Below are positions 4,807 through 60,255 of a stretch of 64,000 bases of DNA, piece after piece. Position numbers and translations under genes: made by a program. The notes under the pieces are model-generated. The model did not search any database, was not told the DNA's origin, and saw nothing but the letters and a program-made list of their open reading frames with translations. The DNA is from Halobaculum litoreum (GTDB taxonomy: Archaea > Halobacteriota > Halobacteria > Halobacteriales > Haloferacaceae), in contig NZ_CP126156.1 in the NCBI RefSeq assembly GCF_030127125.1, positions 2,356,001-2,420,000 of the forward strand, read 5' to 3'. Within the stretch, counting starts at the first letter, position 1. Each line of letters begins with the position of its first letter.

Positions 4807-5955
4807 TCAGAACAGCGGCTCCACTCCCTCGGCGTCCCAGATCCCTCCCGAGAGGTCGGCGCGCTCGGCGATGGCGGCGACGTTGCGCTGTGCCTCGACG
4901 GCGGCGGCGCGCAGTTCGCGGAGCCGGGGCGCCTCGGTCACGCCGCCGAGGAGGACCACCGCCGCGAGGTGGTCGGTGTCGCGAAGCGGGTAGTCGCCGC
5001 CGCGCACCTCCGGCGTCCCGGTCGTCTCCTCCAGCCACGCGCGGGCGTCCTCGACGCCCTTGCGCGAGAGGGTCTCGGGCGGGCCGCTGACGACGACCAG
5101 CGCGCGCTCGACGTCCCGAAGCTCACACGGCAGCGTGAGGTTCCCGAGCGCCGCCCGCCGGACGGTGGCGCTCACCCGCGTCGTCGTCTCCAGCGGGTCC
5201 TCCGAGACGGGTTTGCGGCCGCCGAAGATCCCCCGCTTGCGCTCGAGCGGCGCGGTCGCGTAGCCGAGCGACGCCACGCCGCCGCTCCGGCCGAGCGTGT
5301 TGATGATCTCGCTGGCGTCGACGACCTTCTCCGGGCTCGGATCGGTCGCCTCGCCCGCGGAGAACAGCACGCCGAGCCGGCGCGCGATCGCCTCGTTGAC
5401 GCGGGTGTAGCCCCCCGCGAGGCTCTCGCCCGACTCGCGCCCGGCGGCGTTGTCGTACAGCAGGGTGGCGTCGGCGTGCTCGACGACCGTCTGGAGCGAC
5501 CGCGCGGCGTTGAGCGTGTAGATGCCGCCCTCGTCGCGCGCGGGGAGCACCCCGAGCGCGAACACCGGCTCCTCGTAGATCCGGCGCAGTTCCCGGCAGA
5601 TGACGGGCGCGCCGCCCGACCCCGTCCCGCCGCCGAGCGCGGCGACGACGAGGAACGCGTCCACGTCGCTCGTCGGGATCGCGTCGACGGCGTCGCGCAC
5701 CTCGTCGATGTCGTCGCGCGCCAACTCGGCGCCGAGTTCGTTGTCCGCGCCCGCGCCGTGCCCCTTCACGCGGTCGCCGCCGATCAACACCCGGTTCTGT
5801 GGCGGCACCTCCCGGAGGCCGAGCAGGTCCGCGCGCGCGGTGTTGACCGCCACCGCGTCGACGACGACGTCCTCGCGACTGTCGCGTTCGTAGCGGAGGA
5901 GTGCGTCCGTGATCTTCCCGCCGGCCTGGCCGACGGCGACGACTGCGACTCTCAT
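4807..5955 (-). CDS. cetZ: CetZ tubulin/FtsZ-superfamily cytoskeletal GTPase, 382 aa
   Basis: Cytoskeletal GTPase of the archaeal CetZ group, which controls cell shape and motility in haloarchaea rather than cytokinesis, the job of FtsZ1/2. Visible features are the N-terminal nucleotide loop GQAGGKI (residues 9-15), the tubulin signature GGGTGSG (108-114), and the NTARADL segment typical of CetZ. Unlike FtsZ it lacks a long C-terminal linker and ends in EGVEPLF. The copy number and subgroup (CetZ1 versus others) cannot be determined from this window. It overlaps no neighbour and has its own promoter. Confidence 0.9.
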
Positions 5956-5980
5956 GGCGCGAGCGTGGTGCCGCCCCCTG

Positions 5981-5987
5981 ATAAATC
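5981..5987 (-). promoter_or_regulatory. TATA-like box of cetZ
   Basis: On the minus strand this reads GATTTAT, centred about 29 nt upstream of the cetZ ATG at 5955, fitting a leaderless start. Confidence 0.55.
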
Positions 5988-5997
5988 GGGGCGCCGT

Positions 5998-6267
5998 TCA
6001 GACGCCGGGGACGTCCGACCGGTACTCGCTGATGCAGTCGACGGCGGCCTCGGCGTGGTCGGCCGCCTCCCCGCCGGCGTCGCCGGCGGCGTCGCGGATC
6101 GTGTGGATCCGTTTCGCCATCCAGCCGTGGTCGGGGCCGGCGTCGGCGTCGGCTGCCTCCGCCAGCGCGTCGGCGACGCGCGCGAGGCGCTCGGCGGCCT
6201 CGCCGTCGGCGGCGTCGGCGGCCCGTCGGAGGTGCGCGCTCGCGTCCGCCAGCAGTTGTCGTGTCAT
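5998..6267 (-). CDS. Small helical haloarchaeal protein of unknown function, 89 aa
   Basis: Short Ala/Asp-rich helical protein (starts [18 protein letters not shown], ends [10 protein letters not shown]). It resembles small four-helix hypothetical proteins widespread in haloarchaea, possibly a DUF7553-type family, but I cannot name it with certainty. The start was chosen at 6267 because residues upstream in the longer frame are Arg/Ser-rich shadow sequence. There is no membrane segment or cysteine. It lies 42 bp upstream of cetZ on the same strand but cetZ has its own TATA box, so co-transcription is only possible. Confidence 0.6.
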
Positions 6268-6390
6268 ACCGCCCGATTCTCCGCTTCGGGAGGTAGGCGT
6301 TTCGGCGGTCGCGAACGTCGCCGGCGTCGGTGACACGAGTGCAGCGCTCGGCGGCGCCCGCGCACCTTGCGGCGGAGCGGTTCCGTGGCG

Positions 6391-37267: not shown

Positions 37268-38950
37268 TCACATCGCGCCGCCCATACCGCCCATACCGCC
37301 CATACCGCCCATGCCGCCGCCGCCCGGGGGCATCTCGTCGTCGCCGCCGTCGTCGGAGCCGCCGCCCTTCAGGTCGCCGGCCGCGATGACGTCGTCGATG
37401 CGGAGGATCATCGTCGCCGCCTCGGTGGCGGACTCGATGGCCTGCGTCTTGACGCGACGCGGCTCGACGACGCCCTCCGCCTCCATGTCGATCACGTCGC
37501 CGGAGTAGGCGTCGAGGCCCGCGCCGAACTCGCCGCCGTCGTGGCGGGCGCGCAGGTCGACCAGCGAGTCGATCGGGTCGAGCCCGGCGTTCTCGGCGAG
37601 CGTGCGCGGGATGACCTCCAGCGCGTCGGCGAACGCCTCGACGGCCAGCTGCTCGCGGCCGCCGACGGAGTCGGCGAAGTCACGCAGCTGCAGCGCCAGC
37701 TCGGTCTCGGGCGCGCCGCCGCCGGGCAGCACCTCGCCGTCCTGCAGCGTCGTGCGGACGACGCCCAGCGAGTCCTCGATGGCGCGCTCGACCTCGTCGA
37801 CGACGTGCTCGGTGCCGCCGCGGAGGACGAGCGTGACCGAGCGGGCGTCCTCGACGTCCTCGACGAAGATGCGCTCGTCGCCGCCGATGTCCTTCTGGGC
37901 GACGGAGCCGGCGAAGCCGAGGTCCTCCTCGGTGATGTCGTCGAGGTTGGCGACGACGCGGCCGCCCGTCGAGCGGGCGAGCCGCTTGAGGTCGGAGTCC
38001 TTCGCGCGGCGGACGGCGAGGATGCCCTCCTGCGCGAGGTAGTGCTGGGCCATGTCGTCGATGCCGTCGCCGACGAAGACGACGTCCGTGCCGACGGCGG
38101 TCAGCTTGTCGACCATCTCCTTGAGCTGCTTCTCCTCCTGGTCGAGGAACTGCTGGAGCTGGTCGGGGTCGGTGACGTTGACCTCGGCGTCGATCTCCGT
38201 CTCCTTCACCTCGATGGCGCCGTCGAACAGCGCGACGTTGGCGTCCTCGACGGCGAAGGGCATGTTCTCGTCGACGCGCTCCTTGTCGACGATGACGCCC
38301 TCGATGAGCTCGGAGTTGCCGATGGAGCCGCCGACGACCGTCTCGACGGAGACGTTGTCGGTGTCGATGGTGCCGTCGTCGTCGCGGACGGCGAGCACGG
38401 CGTCGACGACTAGCTTCGCGAGCGTGTCGCGCGCGGACTCGGCGCCCTTGCCCGTCATCGCCGTCGCGGCGATCTTCTCGAGGGTGTCGCGGTCGTCCGC
38501 GGTGACCTCGATGGCGTTCTCCGAGAGGACCTCCTTGGCCTTCTCGGCGGCCTGTCGGTACCCCTGCGCGATGGTCGTCGGGTGGACCTCCGAGTCGATG
38601 AGCTCCTCGGCCTGGTCGAGCAGCTCACCGGCGATGACGACGGCGGTCGTCGTGCCGTCGCCGACCTCGTCCTCCTGTGTCTCGGAGACCTCGACGATCA
38701 TGTTCGCCGCGGGGTGGTCGATGTCCATCTCCTTCAGGATGGTCACGCCGTCGTTCGTGACGACGACGCCGCCCGAGGAGTCCACGAGCATCTTGTCCAT
38801 CCCTTTCGGGCCGAGCGTCGTGCGGACCGACTCCGCGACCGCCTTCCCCGCCGTGATGTTCATCGACTGCGCGTCCTTTCCGGACGTGCGCTGGCTGTCC
38901 TCCGAGAGTACGATCATGGGCTGGTTGCCCATCCGCTGGCGCTGAGACAT
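37268..38950 (-). CDS. ths: Thermosome subunit (group II chaperonin), 560 aa
   Basis: ATP-driven protein-folding chamber subunit of the CCT/TCP-1 type. Landmarks are [39 protein letters not shown], the ATP-site [27 protein letters not shown] and, at the C-terminus, four GGM repeats ending in GGAM. Haloarchaea have two or three paralogues; I cannot say which this is. A strong TATA box lies close upstream, and an inverted repeat next to a second TATA sits 110 bp upstream, fitting heat-shock control. Confidence 0.96.
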
Positions 38951-39153: not shown

Positions 39154-39708
39154 TCAGAAGTCGGTGACGCGCGACTGGATCCGGCCGTCGTCGACCGCGC
39201 GGTCGTCGTCTCGCAGGTACTCGGCGACCTCGTCGGGCGAGATCTCCGTGCGCGCGTCCGCGAACGCCAACTCCGTCAACGACAGCGGCTCCCCCTCGCG
39301 CATCTTCCGGCGGACCTCGGCGACGCTCAACGCGTGGAACGTCACGTCGAGGTCGACGGTCGCCGCGCGCTCCTCGCCCGCCTCCGCGAGGTTGATCCCC
39401 TCGGACAGCACCGTCTCGAAGTCGATCTCGGTGTCGCCGACCCCGCGGTACAGGAACGCCACCGCCGACACGAGCGCGTCGAACGCCGCGGTCCCCTCGC
39501 GGTCGAGGCGGTCCGCGAACACCAACTCCCGGTCCGTCTCGGCGAGCCCCTCCACCAACACCTCGAAGTCGTACAGCGCGGCGTGCAGTCTGTCGCGGAT
39601 GCGCGCCCGCGCGTTGCGCTCGGACTGCACGCTCGCGAACTCGGTCTCCCCGCGCAGGTACCGCCGGTCGGCGGGGGTCAAGATCCCCCGTTCGCGGTCG
39701 TCGTTCAT
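39154..39708 (-). CDS. Uncharacterised haloarchaeal protein divergent from the second PCNA, 184 aa
   Basis: No domain named with certainty. The N-terminal ~50 residues (RGILTPADRRYLRGETEF, then ERNARARIRDRLHAALYDFE) form a highly charged segment with the RGILTPADRxYLRGE pattern that, from memory, recurs in many haloarchaeal proteins of unknown function. The rest is helical and acidic, with TEISPDEVAEYLRD near the end. There is no Cys, signal or membrane helix. It could be a small DNA-binding regulator, because its start codon overlaps one of two near-palindromic sites that flank its TATA box. Start at 39708; an upstream in-frame ATG at 39750 would cross the palindromes. Confidence 0.6.
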   Translation of the reverse strand: MNDDRERGILTPADRRYLRGETEFASVQSERNARARIRDRLHAALYDFEVLVEGLAETDRELVFADRLDREGTAAFDALVSAVAFLYRGVGDTEIDFETVLSEGINLAEAGEERAATVDLDVTFHALSVAEVRRKMREGEPLSLTELAFADARTEISPDEVAEYLRDDDRAVDDGRIQSRVTDF

Positions 39709-39726
39709 ACTCCGATTCGGGGTATG
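39706..39726. promoter_or_regulatory. Near-palindromic site 1, overlapping the start codon of the 39154-39708 gene
   Basis: Half-sites CATACTCCGA and TCGGGGTATG around a central T; 9 of 10 base pairs match. The first three bases are the complement of that gene's ATG. The same 5' half-site recurs 42 bp further on (site 2). Confidence 0.65.
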
Positions 39727-39736
39727 AACTCGGAAC

Positions 39737-39743
39737 ACATATA
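39737..39743 (-). promoter_or_regulatory. TATA-like box of the 39154-39708 gene
   Basis: Minus strand TATATGT-type sequence between the two palindromes, about 32 nt upstream of the ATG at 39708. The predicted start site falls inside palindrome 1. Confidence 0.45.
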
Positions 39744-39747
39744 GACT

Positions 39748-39768
39748 CATACTCCGATTCGAGGTATC
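39748..39768. promoter_or_regulatory. Near-palindromic site 2, upstream of both divergent genes
   Basis: CATACTCCGA, central T, TCGAGGTATC: the same left half-site as site 1, with a less perfect right half. Its centre is 42 bp from that of site 1, four helical turns, so both sites face the same side of the DNA. Confidence 0.65.
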
Positions 39769-39783
39769 TACTAGAACGGGCAC

Positions 39784-39794
39784 AAAAATACTTA
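39784..39794 (+). promoter_or_regulatory. TATA-like box of the second PCNA gene
   Basis: AAAAATACTTA, about 31 nt upstream of the ATG at 39820. It starts 15 bp beyond palindrome 2, so a protein bound there could also affect this promoter. Confidence 0.5.
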
Positions 39795-39819
39795 CTTGCC
39801 GACAGGTCCGCGATCGGGT

Positions 39820-40647
39820 ATGGTCGACGACACCTCCGCGAGCGGTGCCGCACAGCCCGAGGGTACTACGGAGTCGCTTCACGACACCGCGGACGCGCCG
39901 GTCCGGGTGCGCGTGCGCCCGGACGCGCTCCGCCCGTTGCTGTCGGCCGTCGGCGCGCTCGTCGACGAGTGTCGGCTGGCGTTCGCCGCCGACGGCCTGC
40001 GCGCGGCGGCGATGGACCCGGCGACGGTCGCGGCCGTCGAGGTCGAGTTGGACGCCGACGCGACGGAGTCGTACACCGCCGACGGCACCGTCGTCGGCGT
40101 CGACGTGGACCGGCTCGAGGAGGTGCTCGCGATGGCCGACGGCGACGAGGTGGCGACGCTCGCCCTCGACCCCGAGGCGTACCGGCTCCACGTCCACGTC
40201 GGGGAGGTGGAGTACGCGCTCGGGCTGTTCGACCCCGAGAGCGTCCGCGGCCCGGGCGACGTCGACGCGCTCGGCTTCGAGCACACCGCGGCGCTGACGC
40301 TCCCCGGCGAGACGGTCGGGCGGTTCGTCCGCGCCGCGGGGATGGTCGCCGACCACCTCACGCTCGCGGTCGACCCGAGCGAGGAGGCGTTCGTCGCCGC
40401 GGCCGACGGCGACACCGACGACGTGCGCTTCGTCGTCCCGCGCGAGGACACGACCGCGTTCGAGGCCGGCGAGGCGCGGTCGCTGTTCTCGCTGTCGTAT
40501 CTGGAGTGCGTCGAGCGCCCGGTCCCCTCGGGGACGGACGTGCGCGTCACGCTCGGCGAGGAGGCGCCGTTGGGTGTCGCCTACGACGTCGCGGACGGCG
40601 GGGGCCACGTCGAGGCGTTCGTGGCGCCGCGGCTCCAGGCGGTGTGA
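39820..40647 (+). CDS. Divergent PCNA paralogue (second sliding clamp), 275 aa
   Basis: Clear homologue of the canonical clamp at 59512-60255 over its whole length. Shared blocks include LVDEC near the start, DGxxxGVxxxRLEEVLAMA, the DTDDV turn, LFSLSYLECV against [10 protein letters not shown], and APRLQAV against APRIQSD at the end. Differences: a 26-residue acidic N-terminal extension (MVDDTSASGAAQPEGTTESL and on); no lysine at all, where the canonical clamp has seven (inner-ring positions now Arg or neutral); and a changed interdomain connecting loop (ESVRGPGDVDALGFEH in place of [15 protein letters not shown]), where partner proteins dock. It may form a homotrimer, mix with PCNA1 or act as a modulator. 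Haloarchaea usually have a single PCNA. Confidence 0.85.
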   Translation: MVDDTSASGAAQPEGTTESLHDTADAPVRVRVRPDALRPLLSAVGALVDECRLAFAADGLRAAAMDPATVAAVEVELDADATESYTADGTVVGVDVDRLEEVLAMADGDEVATLALDPEAYRLHVHVGEVEYALGLFDPESVRGPGDVDALGFEHTAALTLPGETVGRFVRAAGMVADHLTLAVDPSEEAFVAAADGDTDDVRFVVPREDTTAFEAGEARSLFSLSYLECVERPVPSGTDVRVTLGEEAPLGVAYDVADGGGHVEAFVAPRLQAV

Positions 40648-40676: not shown

Positions 40677-41240
40677 CTACCGCGACTCCTCGGCGCCGCC
40701 GGTGGGCGGCGAGAGGTCGGGTGCGCCGTGGAGTTCGTTGTGCTTGCGCTCGAGGAACGAGTAGACGGCGCCGTGGGGCGCGCCGTCGAGGATCATCCCG
40801 GCGGCGCGGCGGACGGCCTTCACCTCCTCGGGCTGGCCGATGATGCCGAGGGTGGTGCCCTTGATGACGACCTCCGCGCCCGAGAGGTCCTCCATCAGCT
40901 CGCGGGTGCGGCCGTTCTCGCCGATGAGGCGGCCCTTCTGGCGCTGGAGGTCGTTCTTGTTGCGGGTCTTCGACGCGAGGTCGACCAACTCGAACCGGCG
41001 CAGGTCGTGCTCCAACAGCGACAGCGCCGACTCGGGGGTGAACCCCCGGCCGATGGCGCGGACGATGTCGGGCGCGACCATGCCGGCGACGGGGTCGCCG
41101 ACGCTGTCGATGCCGACCGACCCCGACTCCGAGTCGATGTCGAGGCGCACCTCGGCTCGCTCTTCGATCTCCCGCATCGTCTCACCGCCCGCACCGATGA
41201 GCACGCCGATGCGGTCCTGCGGAACCTTCACGTGCTGCAT
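40677..41240 (-). CDS. KH-domain RNA-binding protein (archaeal Dim2/Pno1-like), 187 aa
   Basis: Ribosome-biogenesis protein with two KH domains. KH1 has the GxxG loop in VLIGAGGETMREIEERAEV; KH2 has RLIGENGRTRELMEDLSGAEVVIKG. Eukaryotic homologue Dim2/Pno1 helps the Rio kinase and Nob1 mature 18S rRNA, and the gene sits in an eIF1A-Rio1-KH cluster here as in many archaea. TATA-like GGTTAAGCG lies 26-34 nt upstream, so it can also be expressed alone. Confidence 0.92.
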   Translation of the reverse strand: MQHVKVPQDRIGVLIGAGGETMREIEERAEVRLDIDSESGSVGIDSVGDPVAGMVAPDIVRAIGRGFTPESALSLLEHDLRRFELVDLASKTRNKNDLQRQKGRLIGENGRTRELMEDLSGAEVVIKGTTLGIIGQPEEVKAVRRAAGMILDGAPHGAVYSFLERKHNELHGAPDLSPPTGGAEESR

Positions 41241-59511: not shown

Positions 59512-60255
59512 ATGTTCAAGGCCATCGTGAGCGCCTCCACCCTCCGGGACGCGCTCGATTCGGTGAGCGTGTTGGTCGACGAGTGTAAGATCCGGCTCAA
59601 CGAGGACGAGCTGGCGATCCGCGCCGTCGACCCGGCCAACGTCGGCATGGTCGACCTCACGCTCGAGGCCGCGGCGTTCGAGTCCTACGAGGCCGACGGA
59701 GGGGTCATCGGCGTCAACCTCAATCGCCTGGAGGACATCGCCGGCATGGCGAACTCCGGCGACCTCGTCCAGCTCGAACTCGACGAGGAGACCCGCAAGC
59801 TCCACATCCAGATCGACGGCCTCAGCTACACGCTCGCGCTCATCGACCCCGACTCCATCCGCCAGGAGCCGGACATCCCGGACCTCGACTTACCCGCCGA
59901 GATCGTCGTCGAGGGCGCCCAGATCGACCGCGGGATCAAGGCCGCCGACATGGTATCCGACCACATCCGCCTGCGCGTCGACGGCGCCGAGGAGGCGTTC
60001 TTCATCGAGGCCGAGGGCGACACCGACGACGTCGACCTCCGCCTCGACCGCGAGGACCTCATCGACCTGCAGTCGGGCCCGGCGGACTCGCTGTTCAGCC
60101 TCGACTACCTCAAGGACATGAACAAGGCCATCCCGAGCGACGCGGAGGTCCGCGTCGAACTCGGCGAGGAGTTCCCCGTCAAGCTCCACTACGAGTTCGC
60201 CGAGGGGATGGGGCAGGTGACGTACATGCTCGCGCCGCGCATCCAGAGCGACTGA
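59512..60255 (+). CDS. pcn: PCNA sliding clamp (canonical), 247 aa
   Basis: Homotrimeric replication clamp that tethers DNA polymerase, ligase, Fen1 and others. Family landmarks: start [20 protein letters not shown], the [20 protein letters not shown] block, interdomain connecting loop [18 protein letters not shown] and the C-terminal [19 protein letters not shown]. Seven lysines are present. It has a clear TATA box. The HAD gene follows at 39 bp with its own CTTTTG box. Confidence 0.98.

Follow-up and report, generated by a model that had tools for sequence, protein, structure and literature searches.

A paired operator suggests a self-repressing regulator, from an unnamed haloarchaeal family, with a link to an accessory sliding clamp

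A divergent gene pair and its two palindromes

Two divergent genes share a short intergenic region in the window analysed here, a 64,000-nt stretch of the Halobaculum litoreum genome (contig NZ_CP126156.1, positions 2,356,001 to 2,420,000). Positions below are those of the window.

39154-39708, minus strand: gene of the 184-aa candidate regulator, a member of an unnamed haloarchaeal family, with orthologs found by protein search
39157-39177, minus strand: residues 178-184, QSRVTDF, a PIP-box-like tail at the disordered C-terminus
39589-39630, minus strand: residues 27-40 (VQSERNARARIRDR), start of the long second helix (AlphaFold2 helix 27-54) with S29-x-R31-N32, the proposed recognition element
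39706-39726: operator site 1, CATACTCCGATTCGGGGTATG, which covers the start codon of the 184-aa gene together with its predicted transcription start
39709-39819: intergenic region between the 184-aa gene and PCNA2
39738-39744, minus strand: CATATAG, TATA box of the 184-aa gene between both sites, its promoter assignment inferred from position
39748-39768: operator site 2, CATACTCCGATTCGAGGTATC, lying upstream of the TATA box that serves the regulator gene, with 15 bp between it and the promoter element of PCNA2
39784-39794, plus strand: AAAAATACTTA, BRE/TATA-like element of the PCNA2 promoter, some 31 bp ahead of the ATG
39820-40647, plus strand: PCNA2, an accessory sliding clamp, the divergent partner in every module locus

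Both sites are 21-bp near-palindromes, spaced 42 bp apart on either side of the TATA box of the 184-aa gene. They are copies of a 26-nt direct repeat with 88% identity, and the inverted repeat at site 1 reaches 13 nt, with 12 of 13 paired. CAT at 39706-39708, the start codon of the minus-strand gene, lies inside site 1. The usual archaeal TATA-to-start distance would also put the transcription start in site 1, a few nt before the ATG, and the BRE of this promoter would reach into the edge of site 2. With as many as 3 mismatches allowed, the 3.04-Mb genome has the 21-mer at only these two places, and its reversed control finds no match there; a strict single-site search missed site 2, in which the inner half-site base deviates. 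An earlier sequence-only reading had described this geometry, with one palindrome on each side of the TATA box, site 1 on the start codon and four helical turns between the two, and had raised the question of further copies in the genome. The arrangement holds in every element: the inverted and direct repeats bear out the palindromes at 39706-39768, CATATAG and CAT lie where the arrangement places them, orthologous loci keep 42 or 43 bp, and the genome holds, at up to 3 mismatches, no copies beyond the two.

PCNA2 is a member of the PCNA family, so named because a canonical PCNA is encoded about 20 kb away in the same window (59527-60249). Its N-terminal domain is recognized by Pfam (PCNA_N above cut-off, PCNA_C slightly below), and it matches the H. 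volcanii PCNA structure 3hi8 with E 8e-53 and an NCBIfam sliding-clamp subfamily with E 7e-59, below that family's cut-off. The segments that make up the PIP pocket of known clamps, namely the interdomain loop and a C-terminal [SA]PR segment, are kept in PCNA2 proteins, and the loop sequence is often unlike that of the canonical clamp. The canonical PCNA of the window shares 43% identity with PCNA2, and its sequence is close to that of the H. volcanii PCNA whose structure has been solved.

Conservation and exclusivity of the paired motif

Both sites accompany the 184-aa gene throughout the orthologs examined. A protein search of 148 genomes of the family returned 13 orthologs at 57-89% identity, among many paralogs near 40%, and all 13 have a divergent PCNA2 gene and both palindromes. 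A second genome collection yielded 17 orthologs, all with PCNA2, and one 40% paralog; the orthologs come from Halobaculum, Halorubrum, Haladaptatus, Halorubellus, Halolamina, Halobacterium, Halobium, Halovivax, Halopiger, Natronococcus, Saliphagus, Halorussus, Halosimplex and one metagenome-assembled genome. One further ortholog lies on a Halomicrococcus plasmid. Both sites, each matching at 11 or more of 12 half-site positions, are present in 26/26 distinct protein-identified orthologous loci, each with a divergent second PCNA gene; these loci are related by descent, and their counts are not independent events. The spacing is 42 bp in 9 of them and 43 bp in 17. Absence of the motif from orthologous promoters would have refuted the sequence-only reading, and the motif is present in every one.

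The position of site 1 is constant. An ATG ends it in 26/26 orthologous loci and in 40/40 distinct loci, the larger set coming partly from a pattern search and the 26 protein-identified loci giving the unbiased figure. On the regulator strand the consensus reads RTAMYY-N7-RRKTAY. In all 40 loci, every half-site of both sites keeps its TA, and much of the flanking sequence is little conserved.

A search blind to the protein finds the paired motif only beside this gene pair. Across 391 haloarchaeal genomes, 31 contain the pair, with one match each, against 1 match for the reversed pattern used as control. Spacing 43 accounts for 23 genomes (control 0) and spacing 42 for 8 (control 1). Every one of the 31 matches adjoins both a 184-aa ortholog and PCNA2. 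As judged from this distribution, the paired motif is a dedicated local operator pair and not a regulon-wide one; the single-site search at up to 2 mismatches (123 places, against 82 for the control) is uninformative for a wider regulon.

The two genes appear to travel together. In the window they sit between a thermosome gene (37268-38950) and a KH-domain gene (40677-41240). Five genomes of the genus have the pair beside the KH-domain gene, and six that lack it have the thermosome and KH-domain genes as direct neighbours. Occupied and empty sites thus indicate a cassette of two genes that are acquired or lost together. Reviews describe euryarchaea as having one PCNA, except T. kodakarensis and some methanococci; H. 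volcanii is counted among those with one, and T. kodakarensis is called the only, or the only well-documented, euryarchaeon with two (PMC3984812, PMC7776575). We found no description of the haloarchaeal PCNA2 or of the 184-aa regulator in the open-access literature, the scope of our search. Given the single-PCNA descriptions in reviews, haloarchaeal PCNA2 appears to be little noticed in that literature. The module adds a second, patchily distributed haloarchaeal clamp, accompanied in each locus of this type that was examined by an apparent regulator of its own and by a precisely defined operator.

The candidate regulator and its clamp-binding-like tail

The most likely binder of both sites is the 184-aa protein itself, as residues in one of its helices covary with the operator. 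The AlphaFold2 model (mean pLDDT 82) is all-helical and includes a short helix at 12-18, a long, Arg-rich second helix at 27-54 and a disordered tail at 170-184. Among 57 paralog loci, five have S-x-R-N in common where the long helix begins. The same palindrome lies upstream of the paralog's own gene in four of these five, against 1 of the 52 paralogs without S-x-R-N (Fisher p = 6e-5). The remaining S-x-R-N paralog, L116, is without an exact site. A search of surroundings, where made, found no PCNA2 beside S-x-R-N or KKQKRN paralogs, so it is the protein family and not the clamp that the operator goes with. Through this helix-operator correlation, binding of the sites by the protein and a resulting change in expression are putative.

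Two features of an autoregulatory operator are present at the locus. The sites are symmetric, overlap the promoter and start of the candidate regulator's own gene, and are conserved with that gene in relatives (26/26 loci, 31/31 matches). The proposal of the sequence-only reading that this is an autoregulated operator gains support from the constant ATG at the end of site 1, from the occurrence of motif pairs at this locus only, and from the paralogs whose shared helix residues go with the same operator upstream of their own genes. Start-codon palindromes show only a modest enrichment over shuffles across all paralogs (p = 0.003), suggestive of start-codon autoregulation across the whole family. 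The family is large, multi-copy and without a Pfam entry above cut-off, and the operator is a first handle on its function.

One group of paralogs and one single paralog show variants of the arrangement. Those with KKQKRN in helix 2 (L024-L029, L119-L123) have, by eye, a palindrome TACAC...GTGTA ending at their own start codon, likely a second operator type of the same regulator family. The S-x-R-N paralog L030 has a perfect GTAATC-N7-GATTAC about 81 nt upstream of the gene match and a weaker site at the start, about 52 bp (five helical turns) from the perfect one.

The C-terminus of the candidate regulator resembles a clamp-binding motif. Q[SA]x[VM]Tx[FY] ends all 40 distinct module regulators, or in two cases nearly ends them, and a motif of this type occurs in the last 40 residues of 0/58 paralogs. 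The haloarchaeal PIP box has been given as QxxLxxFx (PMC7776575). The tail follows the general form Q-x-x-[aliphatic]-x-x-[aromatic], with V or M in the position that L commonly takes in haloarchaeal PIP boxes, and NreA of the same genome, a PCNA partner, has the C-terminus QSSLADWTT. In the AlphaFold2 model, the motif falls in a segment predicted to be exposed and flexible (pLDDT < 50 at residues 170-184). Because PCNA2 keeps the pocket segments, the tail likely binds PCNA2; it may bind the canonical clamp instead, or besides. It offers a direct hypothesis for communication between clamp and regulator.

Proposed control of both genes and its precedents

We propose that both palindromes form a double operator dedicated to the 184-aa protein. 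One dimer would occupy each site on the same face of the DNA, 42-43 bp or four turns apart, bracketing the regulator BRE/TATA. The bound complex would cover the regulator's transcription start and start codon and, by doing so, repress its own gene. The same complex would co-regulate PCNA2, whose promoter lies just downstream of site 2, either by co-repression or by activation from a position beside the BRE, the placement from which GvpE activates in Halobacterium (PMC9501494). A AAAANNCTTA element is recognizable about 17-27 nt past site 2 in most of 38 loci, and its nearly fixed distance argues that site 2 serves both promoters. Co-control of PCNA2, which the sequence-only reading had floated, is therefore likely, favoured both by this near-constant distance and by the conserved divergent pairing. 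The disordered QSRVTDF tail would bind PCNA2 and couple regulator and clamp physically, which could give feedback.

We consider this whole reading, in which a regulator from an unnamed haloarchaeal family represses itself and is coupled to an accessory sliding clamp, to be probably correct. Beyond what had been noticed earlier, it draws on the correlation between helix and operator, on the fact that the sites are paired with PCNA2 exclusively, and on the clamp-binding-like tail. An extension of it is more speculative, and we hold it only tentatively: PCNA2 bound to the regulator's tail might alter the regulator's hold on the paired operator, a clamp-sensing switch. The accessory clamp would then be a ligand of the transcription regulator that controls it as well as a product of that control. 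To our knowledge, such a switch would be the first archaeal transcription control through a PIP-box, exerted by an undescribed haloarchaeal regulator family without a convincing match to a known fold.

The strongest rival has another regulator bind the sites, with the 184-aa protein only a PCNA2 partner, encoded alongside and under the control of these operators. A role at the clamp is suggested by its tail, and searches by sequence and by fold detected no known DNA-binding domain. Pfam assigns it no family at cut-off (the best, PF24410, reaches 16.7 bits against a cut-off of 23), its wHTH and HTH families give no domain at curated cut-offs, and no curated family covers the protein. Foldseek against the PDB and BFVD, together with VIA-align, gave no convincing fold match, and a profile search of PDB sequences gave weak helical matches only. 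A separate regulator would be expected to have further targets, yet the paired motif is restricted to this locus in every genome that has it, and the operator tracks helix residues of the 184-aa family in unlinked paralogs. We therefore regard an outside regulator as unlikely, though it is the rival to be taken most seriously.

A replicative origin is considerably less probable. The palindromes would be iterons or the origin of a former mobile replicon, the 184-aa protein its initiator or copy control and PCNA2 its replication factor. A family relative does lie on the 6.4-kb plasmid pHV2, the module occurs on the Halomicrococcus plasmid, within the genus it is inserted between two genes of the chromosome, and haloviruses also carry pcnA. 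Set against this, each locus has exactly two sites, whose placement relative to two promoters is fixed and which always end in the start codon, and in the Halobaculum loci examined nothing but the two genes lies between the chromosomal neighbours, a replication initiator gene being absent. The pHV2 relative (L081, NC_001375, near 5822-6354) is a 177-aa protein of the H. volcanii plasmid that the plasmid gene table we used does not annotate.

Translational control through an RNA hairpin at the 5' end of the regulator mRNA, to which the start codon within site 1 might point, is very improbable: site 2 lies upstream of the TATA box, outside the regulator transcript, and is equally conserved, and the predicted leader of a few nt would leave most of site 1 untranscribed. 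Chance palindromes or a recent tandem duplication, for which the 88% identity of the site copies over 26 nt might speak, are excluded because the sites are conserved, being kept in every ortholog (26/26 loci) across many genera while their flanks diverged, and with the control pattern matching once in 391 genomes.

Our favoured reading, the autorepressor with its double operator, has partial counterparts among known systems. The GvpE-responsive UAS of gvpA and gvpD in Halobacterium likewise serves haloarchaeal divergent promoters through elements of about 20 nt beside the BRE/TATA of both (PMC9501494). GvpE is a bZIP-like activator whose two elements overlap, whereas here two separate full palindromes lie four turns apart, one on a start codon, and by annotation the candidate protein is no relative of GvpE. 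RepR of PhiH1 and ORF48 of PhiCh1 are compact haloarchaeal repressors with an adjacent gene in opposite orientation, from viruses that carry pcnA (PMC6210493); RepR, however, has 89 aa and sits beside replication genes, whereas the PCNA2 pair is cellular and no relatives of the 184-aa protein were found in phage records or in IMG/VR. In the PhiH1 and PhiCh1 genomes, pcnA lies beside uncharacterized genes. Thermococcus kodakarensis, also a euryarchaeon, has a second, dispensable clamp besides the canonical one in its PCNA1/PCNA2 pair, but no linked regulator has been described for it (PMC3984812). The closest parallels to the tail are the haloarchaeal PIP-box proteins NreA, RFC-B and Hef, which share the short Q-x-x-aliphatic-x-x-aromatic motif, often C-terminal (PMC7776575); these are replication and repair proteins, whereas here the motif stands on a putative transcription regulator.
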